Positions 8,772 to 40,391 of a DNA stretch of 64,000 nucleotides are shown piece by piece; positions within the stretch are counted from its first letter, which is position 1, and every line of letters starts with the position of its first letter. The notes under the pieces are model-generated. The model ran no database searches. It worked only from the letters and a program-made list of their open reading frames with translations, and had not been told where the DNA came from. Location: positions 434,001 to 498,000 of the forward strand of contig JAQGEQ010000343.1 of assembly GCA_034620365.1 (NCBI GenBank). The letters run 5' to 3'. Source of the stretch: Pegea sp. RAD2-039 (lineage: Eukaryota > Chordata > Thaliacea > Salpida > Salpidae). The position numbers and the translations under genes were made by a program.

Positions 8772-11646
8772 AGGTGCTAGAAGCAAGTGAGGCTTCACCA
8801 CCTTCAACCACCAAACACAAGATTTGTTTGTAAGAGAAGTTATTATTGACTTGGTGGTGGTGGTCGAGGAGTTTTTACAAGTCAAGATGCTAGAAGCAGG
8901 TGAGTCTTCAGCACCTTCAACCACCAAACACAAGATTTGTTTGTAAGAAAGTTATTATTGACTTGGTGTTGGTGGTCGAGGAGTTTTTACAAGTCAAGGT
9001 GCTAGAAGCAAGTGAGTCTTCAGCATCTTCAACCACCAAACACAAGATTTGTTTGTAAGACAAGTTATTATTGACTTGGTGTTGGTGGTCGAGGAGTTTT
9101 TACAAGTCAAGGTGCTAGAAGCAAGTGAGTCTTCAGCATCTTCAACCACCAAGCACAAGATTTGTTTGTAAGACAAGTTATTATTGACTTGATTTGGTGG
9201 CCGAGGAGTTTTTACAAATCAAGGTGCTAGAAGCAAGTGAGTCTTCAGCACCTTCAACCACCAAACACAAGATTTGTTTGTAAGAGAAGTTATTATTGAC
9301 TTGATTTGGTGGCCGAGAAGTTTTTACAAGTCAAGGTGCTAGAAGCAAGTGAGTCTTCAGCACCTTCAACAACCAAACACAAGATTTGTTTGTAAGAGAA
9401 GTTATTATTGACTTGGTGTTGGTGGTCGAGGAGTTTTTACAAGTCAAGATGCTAGAAGCAAGTGAGTCTTCAGCACCTTCAACCACCAAACACAAGATTT
9501 GTTTGTAAGAGAAGTTATTATTGACTTGGTGTTGGTGGTCGAGGAGTTTTTACAAGTCAAGGTGCTAGAAGCAAGTGAGGCTTCACCACCTTCAACCACC
9601 AAACACAAGATTTGTTTGTAAGAGAAGTTATTATTGACTTGGTGGTGGTGGTCGAGGAGTTTTTACAAGTCAAGATGCTAGAAGCAGGTGAGTCTTCAGC
9701 ACCTTCAACCACCAAACACAAGATTTGTTTGTAAGAAAAGTTATTATTGACTTGGTGTTGGTGGTCGAGGAGTTTTTACAAGTCAAGGTGCTAGAAGCAA
9801 GTGAGGCTTCACCACCTTCAACCACCAAGCACAAGATTTGTTTGTAAGAGAAGTTATTATTGACTTGGTGTTGGTGGTCGAGGAGTTTTTACAAGTCAAG
9901 ATGCTAGAAGCAAGTGAGTCTTCAGCACCTTCAACAACCAAGCACAAGATTTGTTTGTAAGACAAGTTATTATTGACTTGGTGTTGGTGGCCGAGGAGTT
10001 TTTACAAGTCAAGGTGCTAGAAGCAAGTGAGTCTTCAGCACCTTCAACCACCAAACACAAGATTTGTTTGTAAGATTTGTTTGTAAGTTATTATTGACTT
10101 GATTTGGTGGCCGAGAAGTTTTTACAAGTCAAGGTGCTAGAAGCAAGTGAGTCTTCAGCACCTTCAACAACCAAACACAAGATTTGTTTGTAAGAGAAGT
10201 TATTATTGACTTGGTGGTGGTGGTCGAAGAGTTTTTACAAGTCAAGGTGCTAGAAGCAAGTGAGGCTTCACCACCTTCAACCACCAAACACAAGATTTGT
10301 TTGTAAGAGAAGTTATTATTGACTTGGTGTTGGTGGCCGAGGAGTTTTTACAAGTCAAGGTGCTAGAAGCAGGCGAGTCTTCACCACCTTCAACCACCAA
10401 ACACAAGATTTGTTTGTAAGAGAAGTTATTATTGACTTGGTGTTGTTGGTGGAGGAGTTTTTACAAATCAAGGTGCTAGAAGCAAGTGAGTCTTCAGCAC
10501 CTTCAACCACCAAACACAAGATTTGTTTGTAAGAGAAGTTATTATTGACTTGATTTGGTGGCCGAGAAGTTTTTACAAGTCAAGGTGCTAGAAGCAAGTG
10601 AGTCTTCAGCACCTTCAACAACCAAACACAAGATTTGTTTGTAAGAGAAGTTATTATTGACTTGGTGGTGGTGGTCGAAGAGTTTTTACAAGTCAAGGTG
10701 CTAGAAGCAAGTGAGGCTTCACCACCTTCAACCACCAAACACAAGATTTGTTTGTAAGAGAAGTTATTATTGACTTGGTGTTGGTGGCCGAGGAGTTTTT
10801 ACAAGTCAAGGTGCTAGAAGCAGGCGAGTCTTCACCACCTTCAACCACCAAACACAAGATTTGTTTGTAAGAGAAGTTATTATTGACTTGGTGTTGTTGG
10901 TGGAGGAGTTTTTATAAGTCAAGGTGCTAGAAGCAATTGAGTCTTCAGCACCTTCAACCACCAAACACATGATTTGTTTGTAAGACAAGTTATTATTGAC
11001 TTGCTGTTGGTGGTCGAGGAGATTTTAAAAGTCAAGGTGCTAGAAGTAAGTGAGTCTTCAGCACCTTCAACCACCAAACACAAGATTTGTTTGTAAGAGA
11101 AGTTATTATTGACTTGCTGTTGGTGGTTGAGGAGTTTTTACGAGTCAAGGTGCTAGAAGAAAGTGAGTGTTCAGCACCTTCAACCACCAAGCACAAGATT
11201 TGTTTGTAAGACAAGTTATTATTGACTTGGTGGTGGTGGTCGAGGAGTTTTTATAAGTCAAGGTGCTAGAAGCAAGTGAGTCTTCAGCACCTTCAACCAC
11301 CAAACACAAGATTTGTTTGTAAGACAAGTTATTGACTTGGTGTTGGTGGTCGAGGAGTTTTTATAAGTCAAGGTGCTAGAAGCAAGTGAGTTTTCAGCAC
11401 CTTCAACCACCAAGCACAAGATTTGTTTGTAAGACAAGTTATTATTGACTTGGTGTTGGTGGCCGAGGAGTTTTTATAAGTCAAGGTGCTAGAAGAAAGT
11501 GAGTCTTCAGCACCTTCAACCACCAAACACAAGATTTGTTTGTAAGAGAAGTTATTATTGACTTGGTGTTGGTGGCCGAGGAGTTTTTACAAGTCAAGGT
11601 GTTAGAAACAAGTGAGTCTTCAGCACCTTCAACCACCAAACACAAA
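8772..11646. repeat. 113-bp minisatellite, about 25 copies
   Basis: Tandem units of 112-113 bp. Each starts near GGTGCTAGAAGCAAGTGAG and contains the landmarks CACAAGATTTGTTTGTAAGA and TTATTATTGACTTGGTG. Units are about 90-95% alike. Variant units recur in blocks. A four-unit block near 10101 is repeated at 10552 (451 bp apart), and the opening variant near 8773 recurs at 9561 (788 bp, seven units), so higher-order duplication has occurred. The last unit decays at about 11646. The recurrent 60-codon minus-strand ORFs are a by-product of the periodicity. Confidence 0.95.
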
Positions 11647-25248: not shown

Positions 25249-28200
25249 TTATTTAAAATTGTAATATTCGTCCATTGAATCAATATATTCCAAAACCGCT
25301 CGGTAACAAAATTCATATTGTTCCTAAAACACCAAAAGTCTGTTAGATGGAGATACAAATATAAAGGACACAAACTAACTAGACTCTGAACCATATGTGG
25401 TCGCTGTAACCGCAAACATTTGACGATTTGAAACATATCAAGGACACTTTCAGCCTTGACTTGCTCCAATGCAGTTGATAAGGCACAAAAGGCCCCAGTG
25501 CGCCCAGAACCAGCGCTAAAAAGTCCATTTTAACCACATCAACTAATAAATATGTGATTTACCTGCAATGGATTATGATTGGACGATTTCCAGATGTTTG
25601 TTGTTGTTTTTGAACTTTATCGATCAATTCTATGATACTGTAACCAGACTCTGGTACTCCAGTGTCAGGCCAACCCAGGTACTGAAACTAACCGACCACC
25701 TCAGATCAGAACCAGTCCACTTATGACCACTAACCTGACGGACAAACTGTCTCCGTCCACTTAGATCTTGTGAAGAAGAGATGATAAAGTCTCTAGTGAT
25801 GTAGGAATTATTGATTTCAACTTCTCCTCGGTCAACAAGAAGGTTATCAAAGGTCATGACCCCATGTTCGGGCCAATACTGTTCGCATTTCACCTAAAAG
25901 TGGACCGGTGTTGATGAGGACACTTCTGGATGCAGAGGACTCACTTGATTGCGTTCTACAAGTTGAGTTAGCATCACTATGGAAGCGGATTTAGTATCCC
26001 AAACCATTCTCCAGAAGTCCTTGATAGTGTGAGAAAGAGGTCCTTGTGTAGCGATGTAAGTGTCACGTTGACGGTATCCCTGCAGAAGATCAGAAGAAGA
26101 TCAGATAAAGATCAGATGCAGAAGATCAGAAGAAGATCAGATGGAGAAGATCAGATAGAGATCAGAAGATGAAGATCAGAAGAAGATCAGATAGAGAAGA
26201 TCAGAAGAAGATCAGATAGAGATCAGATAGAGAAGATCAGATAGAGAAGATCAGAAGAAGATCAGATAGAGATTAGAAGATGAAGATCAGATGAGACTTA
26301 CATCTATATAAGATGCGTTGATATAATCTGAATTATCGATTGACGGAACAAACGGAATAATGACTCGATTCCAATCATCTACAAGACATAAAAAGATGAG
26401 ATGAAGATCTTTGAGACCTCAAGGATCTTACAAGGGATGCTGAGGACGACTCTGTTCTTCCTCATATTCGAAGGATGATTTCCAGATCTCATTTGCTCCT
26501 TTTGAACCGGAATGTTGGTGAGTTTCTGTAAAAGTAGATGGTTGCCATGGTTACCAACAAGCAAGCAAGCAAATGTAACTAGATGGTTGCCATGGTTACT
26601 AACAAGCAAGCAGATGTAACTAGATGGTTGCCATGGTTACCAACAAGCAAGCAGATGTAACTAGATGGTTGCCATGGTTACCAACAAGCAAGCAGATGTA
26701 ACTAGATGGTTGCCATGGTTACTAACAAGCAAGCAAATGTAACTAGATGGTTGCCATGGTTACTAACAAGCAAGCAGATGTAAATAGATGGTTGCCATGG
26801 TTACCTTAAACTCATGTTCCAACCCCGTGATGTTGCCAGGCATCTTTTTACTCAATTCTTCGACGTAAGCTGCAACTTCTGAAGCTTCTATTTCTGTGTC
26901 TCCATACAAATGATTTTCAAGGAGCGCTTGATAGATGAAAATGTATTGTTGCTATGGAAACAACTAGTTGTTAGCAAGGTAGTAGAAGTGATGACGTCAT
27001 CAACCTCAGTTTGAACCATCTCTGGTCGTTGACTTCTCATCTGAGACACGAATCCGAAAACATCAATCTTTTTTTCTCGCTCCATCATATCCATCATCGA
27101 GTCGATGCAGATGTAGGTCCCAGTTCTTCCGACTCCCGCGCTAGAAGATCAAGAGAAGATCAGGGGAAGATCAAGTGAAGATCAGGAGAAGATCAGGGGA
27201 AGATCAGGAGAAGACCAGAAGAAGATTAGAAGAAGATTAGAAGAAGATTAGAAGAAGATTAGAAGAAGATCAGGAGAAAATCAAGTGAAGATCAGAAGAA
27301 GATCAAGTGAAGATCAGGTGAAGATCAGAAGAAGATCAGGAGAAGGTCAGAAGAAGAAAGATAAAGGAAAATCAGACAACTAAGGAGCAACTTAAAATAA
27401 AAATAAAATTTTTAAGAATAAACTTAAGATTAACTGAAAAGACCAACTAAAAAAACAAACTGAAAAAGACCAACTAAAAAAACAAACTGAAAAGACCAAC
27501 TGAAAAAACAAACTGAAAAGACCAACTAAAAAAACAAACTGAAAAAGACCAACTAATAATAAATAAACTGAAAATAATATAAGAACAAATGAAGATCAAC
27601 TTAGGATCAACTTAGGATCACCTGAGGAGTTTTTTACAACTTACAAGTTTCTTTTTGAGTTTCACTGAAATATTTTTTGACAAATTTTATCAGCTGATAC
27701 AACTGTCCTGACCACAGCTGTCCTGACCACGGACACTCACCTGCAGTGGACCACAACTGCCCCATAACCAGATGGACTAGATTGTCGGACACGTCTCATA
27801 AACTTGAGAATACCAGAAGGAGACTTTGGAACCCCAAAGTCAGGCCAACTAGTGAAGTTGTACTGGAAGAGGTTTCGGGACATACTGATCTTCACATCCT
27901 GATCCTAAGATCAAAAGATCATGATTGGATGCAACTGGGAGCACTGATCTCACTTGAGTGATGTTGAAGGTCCTTATTGTGTAATCTACAAGATGGTCCT
28001 CATTTATTAAAGTCACAGACAAACCTTCATATTGGACAGTACCAGTTGATGGCCAGTACTGGGCACATTTAGTCTGTGGACAAGTGGATAGGTAGATTGG
28101 ACCACTTTTAAGGACCACTAACCTCTTTTCCTTCAACTAGATTGGTGACCATGATGATGACACTTACGTTTTGATCCCAAATCATCTTCCAGAAGTCATT

Positions 28201-31200
28201 GATCGTGTTATCTTTAGGTCCTTGAGCAGATATGAACTTGCCTTTGTGATTGTATCCCTGTGAAGATCTGAAGATGAAGATGTGATGACGACATATCGCG
28301 TCGTACTACGTCATCTATCGAACGCGGGAACTACAGAGGAATCAGCCCTGGTCGTAGGACCATCTAGGACAGTCTGAAACCTATGGGCCTCGTGGTCACT
28401 GTCCCAGGTTGCTGCCCCAAGCCTTTATTTCAAGCCACTGTCCCAGGCTTCTCTGTCCCAAGTTACTGGTCGTGTCACTGAACAGCGGGTCTAAGGAGTA
28501 GGGGTGGTTCAGCTGTCCCAAGCTACTGTCCCAGGTCATTGTCCAAAACTATCAAATAAAATGTGCCTCATCAGCCCTGGTCGTAGGACAATCTAAGACA
28601 GGTACAGTCTGAAATCTGTTGACTTCGTGGTCACTGTCCTAGGTCACTGGGCCGCGTCACCGAACAGCAGATGAGTAGGGGTGGTTCTACTGTCCACTAT
28701 AATCAATGCGCAGACAGATCTTCCATCTACTACTTCATATACTCAGTCAGTAAAAAGATGAAGATAAAGACTCACATCCACGAAAGATGCGTTGATATAA
28801 TCAGTTTCACTCGTATTTGTTGATTTCGGGAGGACAACTCTAGAATGATCATCTGAAGATGAAGAAGATCAGATGATGTAGTCTCATCAACAAGTATCTT
28901 ACATGGAATGATATTTGTGTATCTGTTCTTATCTTTGTTTTGAGGTTTCTCTCCTTGACTTCGAAGTCCTTTTCCTATTGGTAAACTCTAAACCAATCAA
29001 ATTTAATCTCGAGTCATCTACATCTTTCGGACTCACGCTGAACTCTTCTCGAAATGGTTTATTGTCATCAGATCTCCTTCTATTGAAATCCAACTCCAGT
29101 TTATCAAGTGGAATCGAATTATATTGTCGGTTGCCACTAGCAACTGGAATTAGATGCAGGAGCTCGTGATCTTCTCTCCGGTTATTGATTGAATAGAAAC
29201 TAACAACAACAAGAAGAAATTCAGTTTGTTGTTCGCTTGTTTAATGATCTTACTCTAAAGATGTTCCGTTTGGCATCAATTTATTTCGTTTATTCCTTCT
29301 TTTCATATAAACGATGGTTGCTATGACAACCACGATGAACAACAAACTGCCGATGATGATTAACATCAACGTCATAATCGAAGTCTTCTGGACATCCTGA
29401 TCTTCTTCTTGATCTTCTGATATGTTCTGTTTGATATTTGTCAAGTTGTTGTTAGCTTGTAGAGTATTGCTTGTTGGTTTATTGTCATTGGTTGACATGG
29501 TTGAAGTGATTTTCTCAATAACGCTTGAAGTTCCGATTATATGCAAATGAGCTGTTAAGGAAGTAACTTGTGAAGATATTAAAGATGATACAAGTCACTA
29601 ACCACATCGCGCTTTTTCTAGATTCGACCAAATACCGTCTTCACCACATTTAATTAATTTGTAATCAGCTTCAAATGTTTCATTACAAATCAGTCGACAT
29701 TCAGAATGGAAATGGTTTTCATTTGAACAATTCAATTCTCCATTTTCAACATTCAAAGGCCACTTACAGCTTACCTCTGTAAAAAATCAACTTCCGGTCG
29801 TCACGCATGAATGAACACAACCTTTGTGGTGCCCCACACCCCTAAAACTTACTTTTACAATAAGGAAGAGAGGTGTTCCATTTACCACCAGGCATACAAC
29901 GCCTAGCTGTACCAACTAGCTGGTAACCGGAACTACAAGTGAAAGAACAGATTGAATTGAGACCTGTATCTTTAGAACAATGCTTTATCAGATTATCATC
30001 TTCAATTTCATCATCAAAGCCGCATTGAATCTCTAAAAAAAGTCTTTTAAAATCCTTTGTAAGATCAAATGTGGGACCTACTTGAACAATAAGGACTTAA
30101 AGTTGCTGACCAGCCAGTACTGGTACATCTGGACTCATGTGGTCCTTCTAAGACAAACCCTTCAACGCATTTAAACAAACAAACCGAGTCAAATAAGTTC
30201 CGGTCACTACAAGTCGCCTCGCCGTTGCTAGGGTTACTATAATAAGGTTCACAATGTGATTCTGTAAATATAAAAAGGTGTATGAGACGCGCGCTTTTTA
30301 ATGAGAGACTTTTAGAAGAAAGAAGGTAGATAGTGAGATGTTTTTCTGTTGTCTCGTTTCATTAGTGAATAAATAGAAGGAAACAGTATTGAGCTTATTG
30401 AGAAAGTAGTAGATTGTGTTTGAAGTATTTAAATAATGTTTTTTTGATAATTCAATTTGTTGCAGTTAGTTTTTAGAAAGTTTTTTTTGCTGCGTCTTCA
30501 TTTTTTGTTGATTAGTTCACTTCAGTTTATAAAAATATTTATTTAAATCTAAATATTTATTAAAATGTTTTTCTTTTCAGATACTTTTCTAGAAAATTTG
30601 TTTGAAATCAGAAAATGAGAAATTATAAAATTGTTGAAGGTGTTCAGTACCAACAACCAACTTATCTAGGCTTCCTTCAAGATGCAGTCCATGCCCTGGT
30701 CACCTCATGGACAGACCGAGAACCTAATTGGATAGAAATTCAGATAAGTCACACCCATTTTAAGCCTATCTATATCTTGTTGGTTGTAATTTGTGGATTA
30801 TTTTGGACTTTAGCAAGGATTGTATCTTCAAAATACATCTTAAAGGTTTGTGTTGATGTAGATTTAATCATTTTTTAAATCTTTTATTTCAGCCTTTAGC
30901 TAGAAGAGCTGGTTTAGAAGATAGGATTGTGAAGAAGGTGACAGAATTGAGTTTTAATATGGTTGTTGGACTCGTTGCTTGGATTCATATCGCTTATTTG
31001 ACTTTGTATAAATATGAAATCTTCAATAATCCAACCAAGATCTTATACGGTGAGATCCTGTCTGCGCATGCGCATTCATCACAGTAGCGCGCTCTATAAA
31101 CGCTATTCGGTGACACGGCCCAGTGACCTAGGACAGTGACCACGAAGTCCATAGATTGTAGGTTTTGTGTTCACAAAGCTAAAACTGGGACAGTAGCTTG

Positions 31201-34200
31201 GGACAGTGGCCTGGGACATTGGCATGGGGCAGCAACCTAGGACAGTGACCTCAAGATTGCAGATTTCCCTGTCCTAGATGGTCCAAAGACCAGGGCTGAT
31301 GAGGCAAATCTGCCCAGACCCCCTGAACCACCCCTACTCATCCGCTGTTTGGTTGTCCAGTGACCTGGGACAGTGACCACGAAGTCAATAGGTTTCCCTG
31401 TCCTAAATGGTCCTACGACCAGGGCTGATTCCTCGTTCCCGCGTTTGATAGATGACGTAGTACGACGCGATATTAAAAGATCTTCCCATGAAGATGATAA
31501 AATGATCTTTACAGATTGGGACATCAATCAAGAAGCTGATCTTCATCAATCTTTCGTCTTCTTATATCAAACAGGATTCTACATCCACAGGACATACGCA
31601 TCATGGTTTGAAGATGAATGGAGGAAAGATTCCCCTGTTCTCATGGCGCATCATATCTTCACTTTCATGTTATTATCAACTGGTTACATCTACAGGTCTC
31701 TCATCATCGCGTCAATGACGTCATCAACGCTATTCTTCTTGTAGATATTACTATTGTGGCATCTTTGTGTTGTTTCTTCATGATATGAATGATGTCTTGC
31801 TCTCTGCATCCAAGATCTGTAATTATCTCACTAATAAAGAAGGGAACAACATCTGGGCGATCTTATCGCGATTGATCTTCGCGATCTTCGTCATCTTGTG
31901 GTGAGCGAATCGCGTTTTCGTTTCGATGACGTCATCACTTCTTTTTCAGGTATCTTTTCCGACTTCATTGGTTTCCACTTCTTCTCCTTCATACAACAAT
32001 TAATCTTGCAAAGATCATTTACAACGGAAGATATCCTCCAATGTTCTTCTTCAATAATACTCTTCTTATGCTTCTTCTATTCATGCATTTCTACTGGTTC
32101 AAGGTACAAACTACTTGTGACGTCATCAACGCGCGTGTCATCATCAACTATTTGTTCGCAGTTTATCTTGTCGGCTGCTTTTAAGATCATTACGAATTGT
32201 AAAGGACCAATCAAAGATGGTAGAGATTACGAGAAGAAAAGTGAATAAGATGAAGATGAAGAGATTTTTGTGTCTTTGGATGTATAAACAGAAAATTATT
32301 ATTGTTGTTGTTGAGATTGTTTACTTCTAATAAAAAGACTTTTGAAAGAATTTTGTGTTTTGTGACGTATATGACGTCATCAACACGATATCACTAGCAT
32401 ATGACGTCATCAACACGATATCACTAGCATATGACGTCATCAACACGATATCACTAGCATATGACGTCATCAACACGACATCACTAGCATATGACGTCAT
32501 CAACACGATATCACTAGCATATGACGTCATCAACACGATATCACTATCATATGACGTCATCAACACGATATCACTAGCATATGACGTCATCAACACGATA
32601 TCACTAGCATATGACGTCATCAACACGATATCACTAGCATATGACGTCATCAACACGATATCACTAGTATATGACGTCATCAACACGATAACACTAGCAT
32701 ATGACGTCATCAACACGACATCACTAGCATATGACGTCATCAACACGATACCACTAGCATATGACGTCATCAACACGATATCACTAGTATATGACGTCAT
32801 CAACACGATATCACTAGCATATGACGTCATCAACACGATATCACTAGTATATGACGTCATCAACACGATATCACTAGCATATGACGTCATCAACACGATA
32901 TCACTAGCATATGACGTCATCAACACGATATCACTAGCATATGACGTCATCAACACGATATCACTAGCATATGACGTCATCAACACGATATCACTAGCAT
33001 ATGACGTCATCAACACGATATCACTAGCATATGACGTCATCAACACGATATCACTAGCATATGACGTCACTCACGTTCACAATATGGCCAATTATCTTTT
33101 CGGCTCCATCTTCCATCCAAAAGACATTTTTGATGAAAACCTTCTTCATCTGGAAACAGATTATAACCTCGGTTGCATCTCACGTGACACACAGATGAAT
33201 AAAAAGATGAATCAGAACATTCAACAAATCCGTTAGTGATCTTTGGAGGTTGAGGACACTCCACTCCTACATCAGAAGATCAACATCAGAAGATTAACAT
33301 CAGAAGATCAACATCAGAAGATCAACATCCGAAGATCAACATCAGAAGATCAACATCAGAAGATCAACATCCGAAGATCAACATCCGAAGATCAACATCC
33401 GAAGATCAACATCAGAAGATCAACATCAGAAGATCAACATCAGAAGATCAACATCCGAAGATCAACATCCGAAGATCAACATCCGAAGATCAACATCAGA
33501 AGATCAACATCCGAAGATCAACATCAGAAGATCAACATCCGAAGATCAACATCAGAAGATCAACATCCGAAGATCAACATCCGAAGATCAACATCAGAAG
33601 ATCAACATCCGAAGATCAACATCCGAAGATCAACATCAGAAGATCAACATCCGAAGATCAACATCAGAAGATCAACATCAGAAGATCAACATCAGAAGAT
33701 CAACATCCGAAGATCAACATCCGAAGATCAACATCCGAAGATCAACATCCGAAGATCAACATCAGAAGATCAACATCAGAAGATCAACATCCGAAGATCA
33801 ACATCAGAAGATCAACATCAGAAGATCAACATCAGAAGATCAACATCAGAAGATCAACATTCGAAGATCAACATCAGAAGATCAACATCCGAAGATCAAC
33901 ATCCGAAGATCAACATCCGAAGATCAACATCAGAAGATCAACATCAGAAGATCAACATCCGAAGATCAACATCCGAAGATCAACATCCGAAGATCAACAT
34001 CCGAAGATCAACATCCGAAGATCAACATCAGAAGATCAACATCAGAAGATCAACATCCGAAGATCAACATTCGAAGATCAACATCAGAAGATCAACATCA
34101 GAAGATCAACATCCGAAGATCAACATCCGAAGATCAACATCCGAAGATCAACATCAGAAGATCAACATCAGAAGATCAACATCCGAAGATCAACATTCGA

Positions 34201-37200
34201 AGATCAACATCAGAAGATCAACATCAGAAGATCAACATCCGAAGATCAACATCCGAAGATCAACATCAGAAGATCAACATCAGAAGATCAACATCAGAAG
34301 ATCAACATCCGAAGATCAACATCCGAAGATCAACATCCGAAGATCAACATCCGAAGATCAACATCCGAAGATCAACATCAGAAGATCAACATCAGAAGAT
34401 CAACATCCGAAGATCAACATCGAAGATCAACATCCGAAGATCAACATCCGAAGATCAACATCAGAAGATCAACATCAGAAGATCAACATCCGAAGATCAA
34501 CATCAGATGAAAAAGTTAAAAAATTTTACTTCCGCAGGTTGGCGGTAAAGAGCTCCAAGTTTTAGATTTACTACAAATAGTAGATTGACCACCAATTAAA
34601 GAATAACCAACATCACAAGTAAATGTACATTGGGACAGATACAAACTGCCCTGGTCACAACTAACAGATCCATCCAGTGGTTCACGGACAGGTGGACAGG
34701 ACACAGCTATGGACAATCGATGATAAAACAAATATAAAAAATAAGAGATAAAACGGACGTTTACAGATTGGTTTTTGATCTAAATCCCATTGACCATTTG
34801 ATTGACATCTGACAATTTGTGGACCTTCTAAAGTGAATCCTTCTTTACAAGAGTAAAGACATTTCAATTTAGCTTGTCCTTCACCAGTACAATCCAAATC
34901 TCCATTTTCTGGGGCACTTAATTGAGGAATACAACTGACCACTAGATGGCGTATGTGAGTAGATAAAAAAGATGCTAGTAAGGGACTCACGATTACAAAG
35001 AGGAAGATATGAATCCCATCTTCCAAGGACACAACTAGATGATAAAGATCCATAGAGATTATATCCTTCATTACAAGTATAAGTACATTTAGAACCCTCA
35101 AAAACATCATCTGAACAAATCTCATTTAAATTTGGATCAATCTTTCTCACTGGACATTTTGATCCTGAAATGATGACGTCATCAACGCGATACTCATTTA
35201 CATATGACGTCATCAACTTACTTGTACATACTGCTGTATGATTGGTCCAATTACCACCTTTTTTACACATAATTTGTCCACTTTTACTAGATACATATCC
35301 ATCTATACAATTCAGAAGACATTTTGATTCATATTTGTTCGAGTTGCTGCATTCCCAACTTCCATTCTCAATTATTCCTAGATGAGGAAGACACAATTCA
35401 TCTGAAAGATAAAAATCAAAGATCAGAAAGTTTGATTAGAAAAATACTTGATTAAAAAGAACTATTAGAAGCAAATAACTACCATAGCAACAAGCAATTA
35501 GCTTCCATAGCAACCAGCAGTTAGCTACCATAGCAACAAGCAATTAACTACCATAGCAACCAGCAGTTAACTTCCATAGCAACAAGCAGTTAGCTTCCTT
35601 AGCAACAAGCAATTAGCTTCTATAGCAACCAGCAGTTAGCTACCATAGCAACTAGCAATTAGCTTCCATAGCAACTAGCAATTAGCTTCCATAGCAACAA
35701 GCAGTTAGCTTCCATAGCAACTAGCTTCCATAGCAACAAGCAGTTAGCTTCCATAGCAACAAGCAATTAGCTTCCTTAGCAACTAGCAGTTAGCTTCCAT
35801 AGCAACAAGCAGTTAGCTTCCATAGCAACAAGCAGTTAGCTACCATAGCAACTAGCAATTAGCTTCCATAGCAACTAGCAATTAGCTTCCATAGCAACAA
35901 GCAGTTAGCTTCCATAGCAACTAGCAATTAGCTTCCATAGCAACAAGCAGTTAGCTTCCATAGCAACTAGCAATTAGCTTCCATAGCAACAAGCAGTTAG
36001 CTTCCATAGCAACAAGCAATTAGCTTCCTTAGCAACTAGCAGTTAGCTTCCATAGCAACAAGCAGTTAGCTTCCATAGCAACAAGCAGTTAGCTTCCATA
36101 GCAACCAGCAGTTAGCTTCCATAGCAACCAGCAATTAGCTTCCATAGCAACTAGCAATTAGCTTCCATAGCAACTAGCAATTAGCTTCCATAGCAACAAG
36201 CAGTTAGCTTCCATAGCAACAAGCAGTTAGCTTCCATAGCAACTAGCAATTAGCTTCCATAGCAACAAGCAGTTAGCTTCCTTAGCAACTAGCAGTTAGC
36301 TTCTATAGCAACAAGCAGTTAGCTTCCATAGCAACAAGCAATTAGCTTCCTTAGCAACAAGCAATTAGCTTCCATAGCAACAAGCAGTTAGCTTCCATAA
36401 TAACTAGTAATTAGCTTCCATAGCAACAAGCAATTAGCTTCCATAGCAACAAGCAATTAGCTTCCATAGCAACAAGCAATTAGCTTCCTTAGCAACCAGC
36501 AATTAACTTCCATAGCAACCAGCAATTAGTTTCCATAGCAACCAGCAATTAGCTTCCATAGCAACTAGCAATTAGCTTCCATAGCAACAAGCAATTAGCC
36601 TCTATAGCAACAAGCAATTAACTACCATAGCAACCAGCAGTTAGCTTCCATAGCAACCAGCAGTTAGCTTCCATAGCAACTAGCAATTAGCCTCTATAGC
36701 AACAAGCAATTAACTACCATAGCAACCAGCAGTTAGCTTCCATAGCAACCAGCAGTTAGCTTCCATAGCAACCAGCAGTTAGCTTCCATAGCAACAAGCA
36801 GTTAGCTTCCTTAGCAACTAGCAGTTAGCTTCTATAGCAACAAGCAGTTAGCTTCCATAGCAACAAGCAATTAGCTTCCTTAGCAACAAGCAATTAGCTT
36901 CCTTAGCAACAAGCAATTAGCTTCCATAGCAACAAGCAATTAGCTTCCTTAGCAACCAGCAATTAACTTCCATAGCAACCAGCAATTAGCTTCCATAGCA
37001 ACCAGCAATTAGCTTCCATAGCAACTAGCAATTAGCTTCCATAGCAACAAGCAATTAGCTTCCATAGCAACTAGCAATTAGCTTCCATAGCAACAAGCAA
37101 TTAGCTTCCTTAGCAACTAGCAGTTAGCTTCCATAGCAACCAGCAATTAGCTTCCATAGCAACTAGCAATTAGCTTCCATAGCAACAAGCAATTAGCTTC

Positions 37201-40200
37201 CATAGCAACCAGCAATTAGCTTCCATAACAACTAGTAATTAGCTTCCATAGCAACAAGCAATTAGCTTCCATAGCAACTATCTATTAGTTTCTATAGCAA
37301 CAAAACTCGCCTTCACAGATAGGAAAGTCATCTGACCAACCAGATTCCAAACAAGTGATTGAAGATGAACCTTTTAAGACGAAACCAGCTAAACAAGTGA
37401 AACGACATTTAGAACCCAACAAATTATCCGTTTCACAAGTTCTTCTCCCTCCTAACATCTCAGGGACACGTTTACATCGATGTACTGAAACCACAAACTT
37501 GTTAATCAGCCCTGGCGTGTCTTTTCTGACTTACTTCTACATTTAGGGGCACCTTTGTCCCATCCTTCACTTGTACACATCAACTGATCGGGACCTTGTA
37601 ACAAATATCCTTCAGAACATTTGAAGGTACAAACTGATCCGAAAAAGTTATCATCAGAACACAAGACTTCTCCATCTAAAGGATCAGATAAAACACTACA
37701 AGTTTTTCCTGCGGAGAAAAACCTTTTGTTGCTAGTCACGTGTTTGTATTGTGTTTCAACCACAAAATTTTGACTTTAATGATTGAAACATAAAACAGTT
37801 TTTTTAGCGATATTTTGAAATATGAAAAAGATACTGACGTTGGCAGAATGGTGGTTCTGAGGACCAGACCACACCTAGACCATCTGGTCGAAGTTGGCAG
37901 GATATAGAACTTGGTCCAATTAACTTGTATCCACTTTTACATTCAAATTTGCAAATCGAATTAAGATGGAAAGATGAACAAGACATCTTCATCTTTTCAG
38001 GAGTTTCAATACTCTTACAAGACATCTCTACAAAAACAAAAAATTTTCGCGTTTTGAAACAATCAATTAATCGGAGATTTCTCCTTAGTCGTGCGCAGTC
38101 AAGCGTGACGAGGTATTCGAGAAATTCGAACAAAAAGTTAAAAAAAGAAGATTTGAAGACATATGTAAGTTGGATAAATCTAGAAATCTGCATCTGGTCG
38201 CGTCCCTAAGGTACATCATCCAATTAAAAACTCCCAGTAGATTTCAACAGGTTGGAAATTGAATAAAACTTACTTCTACAAGTTGGAGGAGTAGAACTCC
38301 AAGATCCGTTGTCAAGGCAACTGATCTCGTCGAATCCGACCACTTCGAATCCTTCTGGACAAGTATATTTACATTTTGACAAATAATTGTTTGAATTTGA
38401 ACAACTTTGACTGATATTCGGGTTTCTGTTTATAATTTCAGAACAGAAAACTTCTATAAAATGAAAAGATATAAAGATGAAGTCTTCAAGTATCTTCCAA
38501 CTTACTCTGACAAGATGGGAAGATAGAAGATGACCAGATCTTCTTCTGACATTTATTTGAAGTGATCCCGTTTCTAGGTTTGAATCCCGGATTACAAGTT
38601 AGAAGACATATAGAACCATCAAGGTTACTATTAGTACAAGTAACCAAACCATCTTCGACTGAAGTGAACTGTGGTTGACATTGAATCACTAAAATAAAGA
38701 TGATTAAAAGATGAAGATGAAGATCAGGATCAGACCTTCACATCTCGCATAAGTTGAACGAAATAAACCGTTCTTCATACAAACAGTTTTTCTATTTTTA
38801 ACCAACTCAAAACCATCATCACAAGAATATTCACATTCTGATGTAAAATAACTTCCAAAAGAACAACTGATACTTCCATTTAAAGGACTCTCTGGAAGTT
38901 GCTTACAAGGAAAAGCTGGAGATGAATCAATTTAACATTAAAACATCTAAACCTTAAAACTTACATTCCATCGAACGAAGACTCCCGCTTCCAATATCAA
39001 CAAGAGCATTCCATTGGCTACCAGCTGGATCAGAGACAACTTTCCCACTTATAGAATCGAGATAATTGTTCTCATGATACAAGGACACGTCTTCTGCATC
39101 CCATTTCAAGTTGATCTCATCTCTATCACAGTTGACGGTCATCAAATGATTAGTTGATGAGTTATAGGCAAGACACTGTCCATTATGGACGTTTAATAAA
39201 CGGTTTTCTGTGACACGTGACCATGTTTGGTAGTAATTCTTATAATCACAATCTTTTAGTGACACTAAAGCTGGATTTTGGAGATAGCTGCTCCCTTGTA
39301 AGCATCTTTTATCGCCAAGTAGGGATTGTAGCTGGAAATTTGGACCTATTGACGTATAAAATTGATGATGAGGTAAGTTTGTGTGTTTTATGTAAATAAA
39401 ATTTGTTGTTATTTTAAAGATAAGAATTGAATTTAATGATATTTAATGAAAGGAGAAAACTTCTAAATGATTTCAGCAATTTATGAAATTGAAGAATTTT
39501 TTAAAGATTTTTTTATGAATGGATAAAATTTGATGGTTTTAAAGATGAGAAAATATCCAAAAAAAAATGTTTCAAAACAGAAAAAAAAGATTTAAAAAAT
39601 TTATAAAAATTAATTGGAAACACTGATCTTATCTCAAATCAAATTATTGATAAGAAAGTTTTGAAAGATAAAAAACTTTACTCACCAATTGGTTTAGGAA
39701 TACAGTAACAACATTCAACCCTAATCTTGTAATCATTACAAAAAATCGAGCATCTAAGACCAGTTTGAACATCACAAACTGAAGTTTCATCACCCTTGGT
39801 TACCAACTACAAAATAAATACGAAATTCAAACTTTTATCATCTGTAGATGGTTCACAATTAAAGAGCATCGAAGATTTATCAATGAAAAAAAGAGATTTA
39901 TAGATTCAGATGTCATAAAATGATTAAAAACAGTTTTTAGAAATTTGTCTGAGGGGTTGTTGGAGACACTAAAAAGCTAGAATCAATTCTAGATGTTTTG
40001 AAGACTTTTATTGATTCTTAAATCGAACAGAAGTTGAATATTTTTAATTAAATATCAAAAATTAATTTTTAAAACATAAAAAAAGTAGAAAACTTACTTC
40101 ATTTGTGTTTATATTGAAACAATCAATATTAGTTGGTTTTTCACAAAACTGAAAACCACCTTCACGAAGGTCATGATAAGTTTCGAACAAAAAGTCCTCA

Positions 40201-40391
40201 TTTGGATCACCTAAATCCATCCAATCAGTCCATTCACATCGACAGTCTGCAAAAAAAAGGTGTCAAAAGGTCAAAGGTCACTCGTTTAAAATGGTCAATT
40301 CACTTTTTGGCCTTTGACTGCTGACTATGAAAGTAAACAAATAAATTGTTAAAAAGATAAAATTTAAGAAAGATTTTGATGAAGATTCCAT
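25249..40391 (-). CDS. Receptor tyrosine phosphatase: WxxW, ricin-type, 14 CCP, TM, PTP D1-D2
   Basis: A 34-exon gene. The assembled CDS is 5,379 nt (1,792 aa) and every intron phase agrees. Order: signal peptide (1 to about 26, start at 40391), WxxW module (about 30-119), ricin-type beta-trefoil (120-246), 14 CCP modules (247-1086), stalk, one membrane span (about 1145-1169), PTP D1 (from about 1241, catalytic Cys about 1433) and PTP D2 (Cys about 1722). It ends in DEYYNFK. D1-D2 and the C-terminus match the PTPRA/PTPRE (R4) class, whose mammalian members have only short glycosylated ectodomains. The product should remove phosphate from phosphotyrosine at the plasma membrane under control of a large carbohydrate- or complement-like ectodomain (inference). 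CerS is nested in intron 15 on the other strand. The alternative is two adjacent genes (CCP protein and RPTP); it is disfavoured because exon 15 (phase 1 out) joins exon 16 (phase 1 in) and no start exon was seen near 30.3-30.6 kb. Confidence 0.85.
26084..26299. repeat. GAAGATCAG repeat filling RPTP intron 29
   Basis: Irregular array of AGAAGATCAG, AGATAGAG and related 8-12-bp words occupying all of the 222-bp intron between exons 29 and 30. It belongs to the same GATC theme as the CFAP69 intron 12 array. Confidence 0.85.
26534..26808. repeat. 41-bp tandem repeat carrying X-box-like palindromes
   Basis: Nearly seven units of about 41 bp, each containing GTTGCCATGGTTAC followed by a CAACAAGCAAGCAG-type spacer. 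They fill RPTP intron 27. On the coding strand the palindrome reads GTAACCATGGCAAC, and the first copy is itself the splice donor (exon AAG, then GTAACC). GTAACCATGGCAAC fits the RFX X-box consensus. Confidence 0.9.
27143..27360. repeat. GAAGATCAG-type array in RPTP intron 25
   Basis: Irregular repeats of AGAAGATCAGG, AGAAGATTAG and AAGTGAAGATC directly 5' of exon 26, on the + strand immediately after AG/CGCGGG. Confidence 0.85.
27431..27570. repeat. Short array of ACTGAAAAGACCAACTAAA units
   Basis: About five copies of a 26-29-bp unit, alternating AACAAACTGAAAAAGACCAA with A-runs, in the same intron 25. Confidence 0.8.
28285..28735 (-). mobile_element. Dispersed repeat with internal CTGTCCC array, copy 1
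   Basis: In RPTP intron 22. It is the reverse complement of the copies at 31052 and 42796. Shared landmarks are the outer ATATCGCGTCGTACTACGTC and CAGCCCTGGTCGTAGGAC at one side, and GTAGGGGTGGTTCTACTGTC and AATGCGCAGACAG at the other. Between them is a variable run of CACTGTCCCAGGT-type units. No ORF or clear target-site duplication is visible, so this is a non-autonomous element of unknown class. Confidence 0.65.
28776..29551 (-). other. RPTP exons 19-22: stalk, membrane span, juxtamembrane
   Basis: Exon 19 (29551-29254) encodes a Thr/Asn-rich stalk with an acidic SEDQEEDQD patch. The span [20 protein letters not shown] follows, then the stop-transfer sequence KRRNKRNK. Exon 20 (29199-29037) ends FREEFS and exon 21 (28987-28903) resumes SLPIGKG, with KNRYTNIIP. 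This reconstructs the REEF...LP wedge and the KNRY phosphotyrosine-recognition loop of D1. Exon 22 (28852-28776) gives YDHSRVVLP and DYINASF. The single unspliced frame through 28915-29169 on the opposite strand is a shadow. Confidence 0.85.
30615..32248 (+). CDS. CERS: Ceramide synthase (LAG1/CerS1-like), nested gene
   Basis: Multi-span ER enzyme that N-acylates sphingoid bases with fatty acyl-CoA (family knowledge). Six exons: 30615-30845, 30893-31049, 31515-31695, 31745-31900, 31950-32103 and 32162-32248, giving 321 aa with consistent phases. The TLC/Lag1 core is clear: [28 protein letters not shown] with the paired histidines, and [18 protein letters not shown] corresponding to the conserved Lag1p motif. 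Length and the lack of a homeobox-like region favour a CerS1-type enzyme. It lies wholly inside RPTP intron 15 in the opposite orientation. Intron 2 holds copy 2 of the dispersed repeat. Introns 3, 4 and 5 each contain a TGACGTCA. An AATAAA at 32329 follows the stop. Confidence 0.92.
31052..31478 (+). mobile_element. Dispersed repeat with internal array, copy 2
   Basis: In CerS intron 2. It starts CCTGTCTGCGCATGCGCATT, runs through GGTGACACGGCCCAGTGACC and a variable array of CAGTGACCTGGGACAG units, and ends CCTACGACCAGGGCTGATTC then GTAGTACGACGCGATAT. Compared with copies 1 and 3 it shares both ends and the order of blocks but differs in array length. Confidence 0.7.
32371..33069. repeat. 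30-bp satellite built on TGACGTCA, about 23 copies
   Basis: Almost perfect 30-bp units, each CATATGACGTCATCAACACG followed by ATATCACTAG, with single-base variants. The array starts about 35 bp after the CerS polyadenylation signal. It ends inside the splice donor of RPTP exon 15 (coding strand GAAC then GTGAGTGACGTCATATG). Long ORFs on both strands here are artefacts of a unit length divisible by three. Confidence 0.97.
33271..34506. repeat. 15-bp satellite filling RPTP intron 14, about 82 copies
   Basis: Units of AGATCAACATCAGAA or AGATCAACATCCGAA, differing at essentially one base (A or C, rarely T). One 1-bp deletion occurs near 34418. The array occupies nearly all of the 1,263-bp intron between exons 14 and 15. 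A 440-codon plus-strand ORF across it is a periodicity artefact. Confidence 0.97.
35465..37303. repeat. 23-bp satellite filling RPTP intron 10, about 80 copies
   Basis: Units of about 23 bp of the form AGCTTCCATAGCAACAAGCA plus ATT or GTT, with variants ACTAGC, ACCAGC and CCTTAG. They occupy nearly the whole 1,909-bp intron between exons 10 and 11. On the coding strand each unit contains GTTGCTATGG, half of an X-box-like palindrome. Confidence 0.96.
38965..40391 (-). other. RPTP exons 1-4: signal peptide, WxxW and ricin-type modules
   Basis: Exon 1 (40391-40304) encodes [10 protein letters not shown], then a hydrophobic run ending in VSSQ, a typical signal peptide; its GTGAAT donor leaves phase 1. 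Exons 2 (40246-40098) and 3 (39806-39686) encode a cysteine-rich module with [21 protein letters not shown] and DYKIRVECC. This is the Mucin2/CILP WxxW pattern. Exon 4 (39345-38965), 127 aa, begins with RCLQG and has [29 protein letters not shown] and SQWNAL. These are the repeated QxW-type elements of a ricin-type beta-trefoil, as in R-type lectins. The second, about 57-bp intron is unusually short. Sugar binding by the trefoil is not shown by sequence alone. Confidence 0.8.

Follow-up and report, generated by a model that had tools for sequence, protein, structure and literature searches.

A predicted salp receptor phosphatase that joins an R4-type D1-D2 module to a lectin-like and 14-sushi ectodomain

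Receptor-type tyrosine phosphatases of the R4 subgroup, PTPRA and PTPRE, are described in vertebrates as having short, disordered and glycosylated ectodomains, for which that account reports no ligands and which, according to it, possibly bind none (PMC10815196). Their cytoplasmic half signals through Src: PTPRA activates this kinase by dephosphorylating its inhibitory Y527, and at focal adhesions the phosphorylated Y789 of the PTPRA tail serves to recruit Grb2 and Src (PMC7959691, PMC9333306). Of the two catalytic domains of PTPRA, D1 is reported to exceed D2 in activity by four to five orders of magnitude (PMC9333306). Here we describe a gene on the minus strand (40391–25249) of a 64,000-nucleotide (nt) stretch of DNA from the salp Pegea sp. 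RAD2-039 (GCA_034620365.1, contig JAQGEQ010000343.1, positions 434,001 to 498,000 of the forward strand), henceforth the window, in which a cytoplasmic D1-D2 module of this type is joined to a large ectodomain of WxxW, R-type lectin-like and sushi (CCP) modules. We lean towards reading it as one type I receptor gene that combines an R4-type D1-D2 module with an ectodomain of the ligand-binding type and would serve surface adhesion or glycan sensing by acting on Src-family kinases. As a tunicate membrane protein with sushi modules, its predicted product is comparable to Botryllus fester and FcoR and to Ciona vCRL1 as these are described (PMC12065747, PMC9265791).

The gene model was rebuilt exon by exon from the genomic sequence, and the 34 exons given in a preliminary description of this DNA were reproduced at their coordinates: they form a single frame without an internal stop, from a start codon at 40391 to a stop codon ending at 25249. 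The claim of a single frame stood, but its given length of 5,379 nt did not; the frame was first drawn at 5,400 nt and comes to 5,388 nt, or 1,795 amino acids (range 1,795–1,799), with the acceptor of exon 19 at 29554, which makes intron 18 48 nt rather than 36 nt long and is better spaced. GT-AG borders delimit 32 of the 33 introns, and intron 10 is GC-AG. A Pfam search of the assembled protein bore out the WxxW, 14-sushi and D1-D2 parts of the architecture that had been proposed from the letters, returning Sushi in 14 stretches (E 1.2e-83), Y_phosphatase in two (E 1e-167) and Mucin2_WxxW (E 2.2e-10).

From its N terminus the predicted protein runs as follows. Exon 1 (40304–40391) holds the start codon and a signal peptide of 29 residues (maximal 10-residue Kyte–Doolittle mean 2.37; donor 8.1 bits), exons 2 and 3 (40246–40098 and 39806–39686) the WxxW module (PF13330, 46.1 bits against a cut-off of 22.4) and exon 4 (38965–39345) the R-type (CysR/ricin B) module. 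Sushi modules 1–11 follow in exons 5–15 (33075–38915), one exon each, and modules 12–14 in exons 16–18 (29603–30261), on the 3′ side of the 2,813-nt intron 15; all 14 of these exons are phase 1 at both ends. As read from the sequence, exon 19 (29254–29566, or from 29554) encodes the stalk, a transmembrane helix of 25 residues and a basic stop-transfer segment; exon 20 (29037–29199), single-copy as coding context, encodes the juxtamembrane segment. By Pfam and comparison with the PDB, D1 and the linker lie in exons 21–27 (26805–28987), and D2 with the tail DEYYNFK in exons 28–34 (25249–26525). The features of a classical receptor-type phosphatase are present, namely a signal peptide, one transmembrane helix and cytoplasmic phosphatase domains with HCX5R, and the open frame, domains and motifs are far beyond chance.

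The cytoplasmic half scored 743 bits against PTPRA in the PDB, 667 against PTPRE, 555 against PTPRS and 424 against CD45, and is identical to PTPRA at 311 of 541 aligned positions (57.5%), as against 252 of 530 (47.5%) for PTPRS. Hence, judged by scores and identity rather than by a tree, it is nearer to PTPRA and PTPRE than to other subgroups. D1 retains KNRY, WPD and the 10-residue motif; D2 has KNRV as in PTPRA, along with its own 10-residue motif, but shows WPD where PTPRA has WPE, a substitution through which D2 may be more active. At the C terminus YYNFK aligns with YANFK of PTPRA, giving the YxNFK ending with a tyrosine of the Y789 type. The earlier assignment to the PTPRA/PTPRE type, down to the NFK ending, is thereby upheld. 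The exon pattern is repeated between the two domains (77/77, 135/135, 284/284 and 136/136 nt, the 284-nt part being split differently). In sum, the salp protein is like PTPRA and PTPRE, its best PDB matches, in its tandem D1-D2, active-site motifs, YxNFK tail and type I membrane topology, and differs from them, apart from the WPD of D2, in its ectodomain, which is not short and disordered but spans about 1,120 residues made up of WxxW, CysR and 14 sushi modules. With such an ectodomain, it should therefore be regarded as bearing an R4-type cytoplasmic module and not as an R4 receptor as described.

At the tip of the ectodomain, Ricin_B_lectin stayed under its cut-off in the whole-protein scan (25.4 against 29 bits), whereas exon 4 taken alone passed the cut-offs of both CysR_MRC2_N (PF24562, 34.7 against 27) and Ricin_B_lectin (PF00652, 32.1 against 29). 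Against the PDB, the best nine matches of this exon were all chains of the mannose receptor family (E 0.0014–0.016). The original label of "ricin-type" was thus right as to an R-type module and can be sharpened to the CysR module of that family. As in MRC2, LY75, PLA2R and the yolk sac IgY receptor, a CysR/R-type module lies in the N-terminal region, but neither an FN2 nor a C-type lectin domain was found by Pfam up to E 1, and the salp protein carries a phosphatase tail. The WxxW-CysR part is present once in the genome, the sole other match being a weak WxxW on C88.

The rod below this tip consists of sushi modules of a form that the preliminary description had overlooked. All 14 modules have six cysteines, and 13 of the 14 a tryptophan; eleven N-glycosylation sequons fall within the first 1,130 residues. 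In the PDB, the array found its best match in CR1 (502 bits), and the likeness to CR1, CR2 and factor H lies in the length of the array. However, the modules of these proteins were aligned by HMMER without the two extra cysteines, and the salp array departs from the complement-regulator CCP proteins both in this respect, with six cysteines rather than four in every module, and in its membrane anchor with a phosphatase. Six-cysteine sushi modules are known from the selectins, and E-selectin was matched at 49 bits, in a match in which its cysteines are not visible. The selectins also offer the precedent of a lectin module on a sushi stalk, although here the lectin module is R-type rather than C-type, no C-type lectin or EGF domain was found by Pfam up to E 1, and a phosphatase forms the tail. 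Elsewhere in the genome, where 150 of 638 Sushi candidates were scored, further six-cysteine arrays occur at C57, C8:1.808 Mb and C71, with at least six cysteines in 22 of 30 matched segments; these counts are approximate, the segments having been cut with a fixed margin. They are of the same module type but have no phosphatase match nearby among the matches listed. At C71:568 kb (L049), four consecutive, near-identical six-cysteine sushi exons represent a recent expansion.

Whether the two halves belong to one gene turns on intron 15. The preliminary description had rightly named the gap between exons 15 and 16 as the weak point but had overlooked the complete ceramide synthase gene that it harbors. 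This gene (30615–32248, plus strand; TLC domain PF03798, 42.0 against a cut-off of 24.6) has six exons with GT-AG introns, an open frame of 321 amino acids and an AATAAA at 32329, and lies antisense to the phosphatase gene. The same intron contains a minisatellite of 23 copies of a 30-bp unit (32369–33069, 701 nt). Two others, of different units, fill further introns of the gene: 88 copies of a 14-bp unit (33269–34504) take up 1,236 nt of intron 14, which is 1,263 nt long, and 80 copies of a 23-bp unit (35469–37303) take up 1,835 nt of the 1,909-nt intron 10. Such repeats could be misassembled, but the 34 exons without a stop or frameshift, the canonical splice sites and the intact catalytic motifs make an assembly artefact or a pseudogene very improbable.

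A more substantial alternative, though still an unlikely one, posits two neighboring genes, one for a secreted protein of WxxW, lectin and 11 CCP modules (exons 1–15) and the other (exons 16–34) for an R4-type phosphatase that bears three CCP modules. A whole gene does sit in the 2,813-nt gap, and the argument from reading phase offers little against a split: since every sushi exon is phase 1-1, compatibility across exons 15 and 16 is automatic and constitutes weak evidence. Hence, the absence of a phase conflict that had been adduced holds as a statement on the frame, which is open throughout, but not as proof of a single gene. Other observations speak against two genes. The donor of exon 15 (10.2 bits) and the acceptor of exon 16 (8.2 bits) are strong: across the gene, donors have a median of 8.1 and acceptors one of 5.6. 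Minisatellites account for the size of the two other large introns, 10 and 14, as well, which also favors one gene. CCP12, the first module past the gap, has its nearest relative in the 105.7-Mb genome in CCP5, which precedes the gap (53% at E 5.6e-13, with the next-best place at E 2.9e-9). Just seven ATG-to-donor candidates for a first exon occur in the intron, six of which do not resemble signal peptides, and there is none in the 352 nt between the start of the ceramide synthase gene and exon 16. On these grounds, we conclude that exons 1–34 are probably one gene.

Several points nevertheless weigh against the reading that we prefer. The one weakly signal-peptide-like first-exon candidate in intron 15 (31546–31417; donor 3.3 bits; hydrophobic mean 2.09, compared with 2.37 in exon 1) could serve a separate phosphatase gene, even if it overlaps the ceramide synthase gene in antisense. 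Read-through of the exon 15 donor meets a stop at once (CERE, stop), so that a secreted end is possible, and terminal-exon candidates of a loose kind are many; wherever these have a poly(A) signal, they lie in or beside the stretch antisense to the ceramide synthase gene. The kinship of CCP12 and CCP5 would likewise be seen in a tandem-duplicated neighbor. As to the tip, the fold of exon 4 was not captured by AlphaFold2 on the single sequence without an alignment (predicted local distance difference test score 30.9), and as to the tail, the requirement for phosphorylated Y789 in the activation of Src is itself disputed, as reported in PMC9333306.

Taking the single receptor as the preferred reading, its architecture suggests that it would act most likely at cell–cell or cell–matrix contacts, where the tip (the lectin module, WxxW and the distal sushi modules) may bind a glycan or protein in trans, and that such binding might place, cluster or exclude the phosphatase. 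By homology with PTPRA, D1 would then strip the inhibitory C-terminal phosphate from Src-family kinases, and the tyrosine of the YYNFK tail at the position of Y789, once phosphorylated, would recruit Grb2 and Src. The Src-family substrates and the function of the tail are thus predictions drawn from the kinship of the cytoplasmic half, and it is the domain architecture that suggests adhesion or the sensing of glycans, along with what a ligand would do. A bolder version, which we consider improbable, holds that the protein is a ligand-driven sensor whose tip and six-cysteine rod read glycans or surface proteins of other cells and, at contacts, activate or silence Src-family kinases, with a D2 rendered unusually active by its WPD. 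Were this true, there would be a chordate class of receptors that couples CCP and lectin recognition directly to a phosphatase and not to tyrosines of immunoreceptor activation or inhibition motifs (ITAM/ITIM).

Two other ways of using the same ectodomain deserve consideration. Compatible with our preferred reading, and with a real chance of being right though a somewhat less than even one, is that the locus yields several products, namely the full-length receptor along with secreted or shorter forms of the ectodomain through alternative splicing or 3′ ends. Because each CCP exon is symmetrical (phase 1-1), any of them can be skipped in frame; moreover, Botryllus fester and FcoR are described as splicing their ectodomain exons in a genotype-specific manner (PMC12065747). 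The second option is steric: the rod of 14 modules would bar the phosphatase from tight contacts by its sheer size, and the exact ligand would matter little. A sushi module measures roughly 3.5–4 nm, and the number of modules in the rod favors this view. There is also a precedent in the size exclusion of CD45 and CD148 proposed at dectin-1 contacts (PMC10815196). However, R4 phosphatases activate Src-family kinases, so that the effect of exclusion might be of either sign, and the tip, with its conserved WxxW and lectin modules, speaks for a specific ligand; we regard a purely steric role as doubtful.

That the gene serves to tell self from non-self or to sense pathogens, as had been suggested earlier, is possible, but as a full account of the gene, in which self or microbial ligands would bind a polymorphic CCP array, this appears unlikely. 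In its favor, some tunicate sushi receptors, such as fester, are polymorphic allorecognition molecules (PMC12065747), and the R-type module is of the mannose-receptor type. On the other hand, fester and FcoR are portrayed as multigene families with immunoglobulin (Ig) domains beside their sushi modules and with short or tyrosine-motif tails, none being described there with a phosphatase (PMC12065747), whereas the window gene, seen in one haplotype, is present in one copy in the assembly and has no Ig domain in the Pfam scan of the whole protein. Also instructive is vCRL1, a variable sushi receptor of Ciona, which was first proposed as an allorecognition molecule and later linked to the formation of the blood system, and not to the control of self-sterility (PMC9265791). 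Given this precedent, CCP modules by themselves do not imply such a function.

We also surveyed the rest of the genome for relatives of the two halves. Fragments excepted, no second phosphatase place as close to that of the window was found in the genome, the best being on C4 (59% over 56 residues). Of about 26 phosphatase places, 11 others (12 loci) were set against PTPRA, PTPRS and the window, using sums that count overlapping pieces and are hence rough. One on C8 is LAR-like, and most of the others score nearly alike against PTPRA and PTPRS in this rough comparison made without a tree, so that a distant R4 relative may exist among them. Equal-scoring phosphatase matches at C19:254–257 kb, C77:303–306 kb and C19:459–462 kb are perhaps duplicated or uncollapsed. 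Among the matches listed, with 150 of the 638 Sushi candidates scored, no sushi match lies less than 40 kb from a phosphatase match outside the window, the nearest such pair being about 45 kb apart on opposite strands of C8.

Four places with 79–90% copies of exons 21–22 at first suggested a paralogous receptor family, but this was ruled out, as the fragment lies inside a dispersed repeat. A 357-bp piece of the gene (28726–29082), comprising exons 21–22, the end of exon 20 and introns, occurs in at least four copies of this repeat (L029, L030, L031 and L032), 93–96% identical to the window, and the repeat copies themselves are 95–98% alike over more than 5 kb. As judged from these sequences, the piece is a fragment of the gene that a dispersed element has carried along. 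Another stray fragment is found at C3:3343056–3343139, a 28-residue stretch 75% identical to the region of exon 29 and surrounded by stops. A candidate paralogue of the ectodomain at C8:1.694–1.710 Mb, with WxxW beside sushi, was rejected as a mosaic of VWD, EGF and sushi domains in which none of 16 segments has six cysteines; the sushi segments of this C8:1.69–1.71 Mb mosaic seldom match well. The region in its own right (L042 and L043, C8:1.693–1.7105 Mb) is a large mosaic whose exons encode WxxW, VWD, EGF-like and four-cysteine sushi domains, the non-sushi ones having been named by eye. Further features are a tandem array of about 25 copies of a 113-bp unit at 8772–11645 of the window and, elsewhere in the genome, a GH6 cellulase exon just past its cut-off (27.5 against 27 bits), whose neighboring frames appear GH6-like by eye; a GH6 cellulase gene in an animal would be in keeping with a tunicate. 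COX1 is absent from the assembly.

In the titles and abstracts listed from an open-access library, we found no description of an R4 phosphatase with an ectodomain of the sushi or lectin kind; the same architecture may already be annotated in tunicate protein databases. The interest of the locus would drop sharply if it proved to be two genes, or if the architecture were widespread and already annotated in tunicates. Otherwise, the gene would place a direct phosphatase among the tunicate sushi receptors, the known members of which act through co-receptors. The vertebrate R4 phosphatases have been called ligandless (PMC10815196). A relative with an ectodomain of recognition modules would show that a ligand can control the R4 signaling module, or once did, and would offer a tractable system for learning how such control is exerted.

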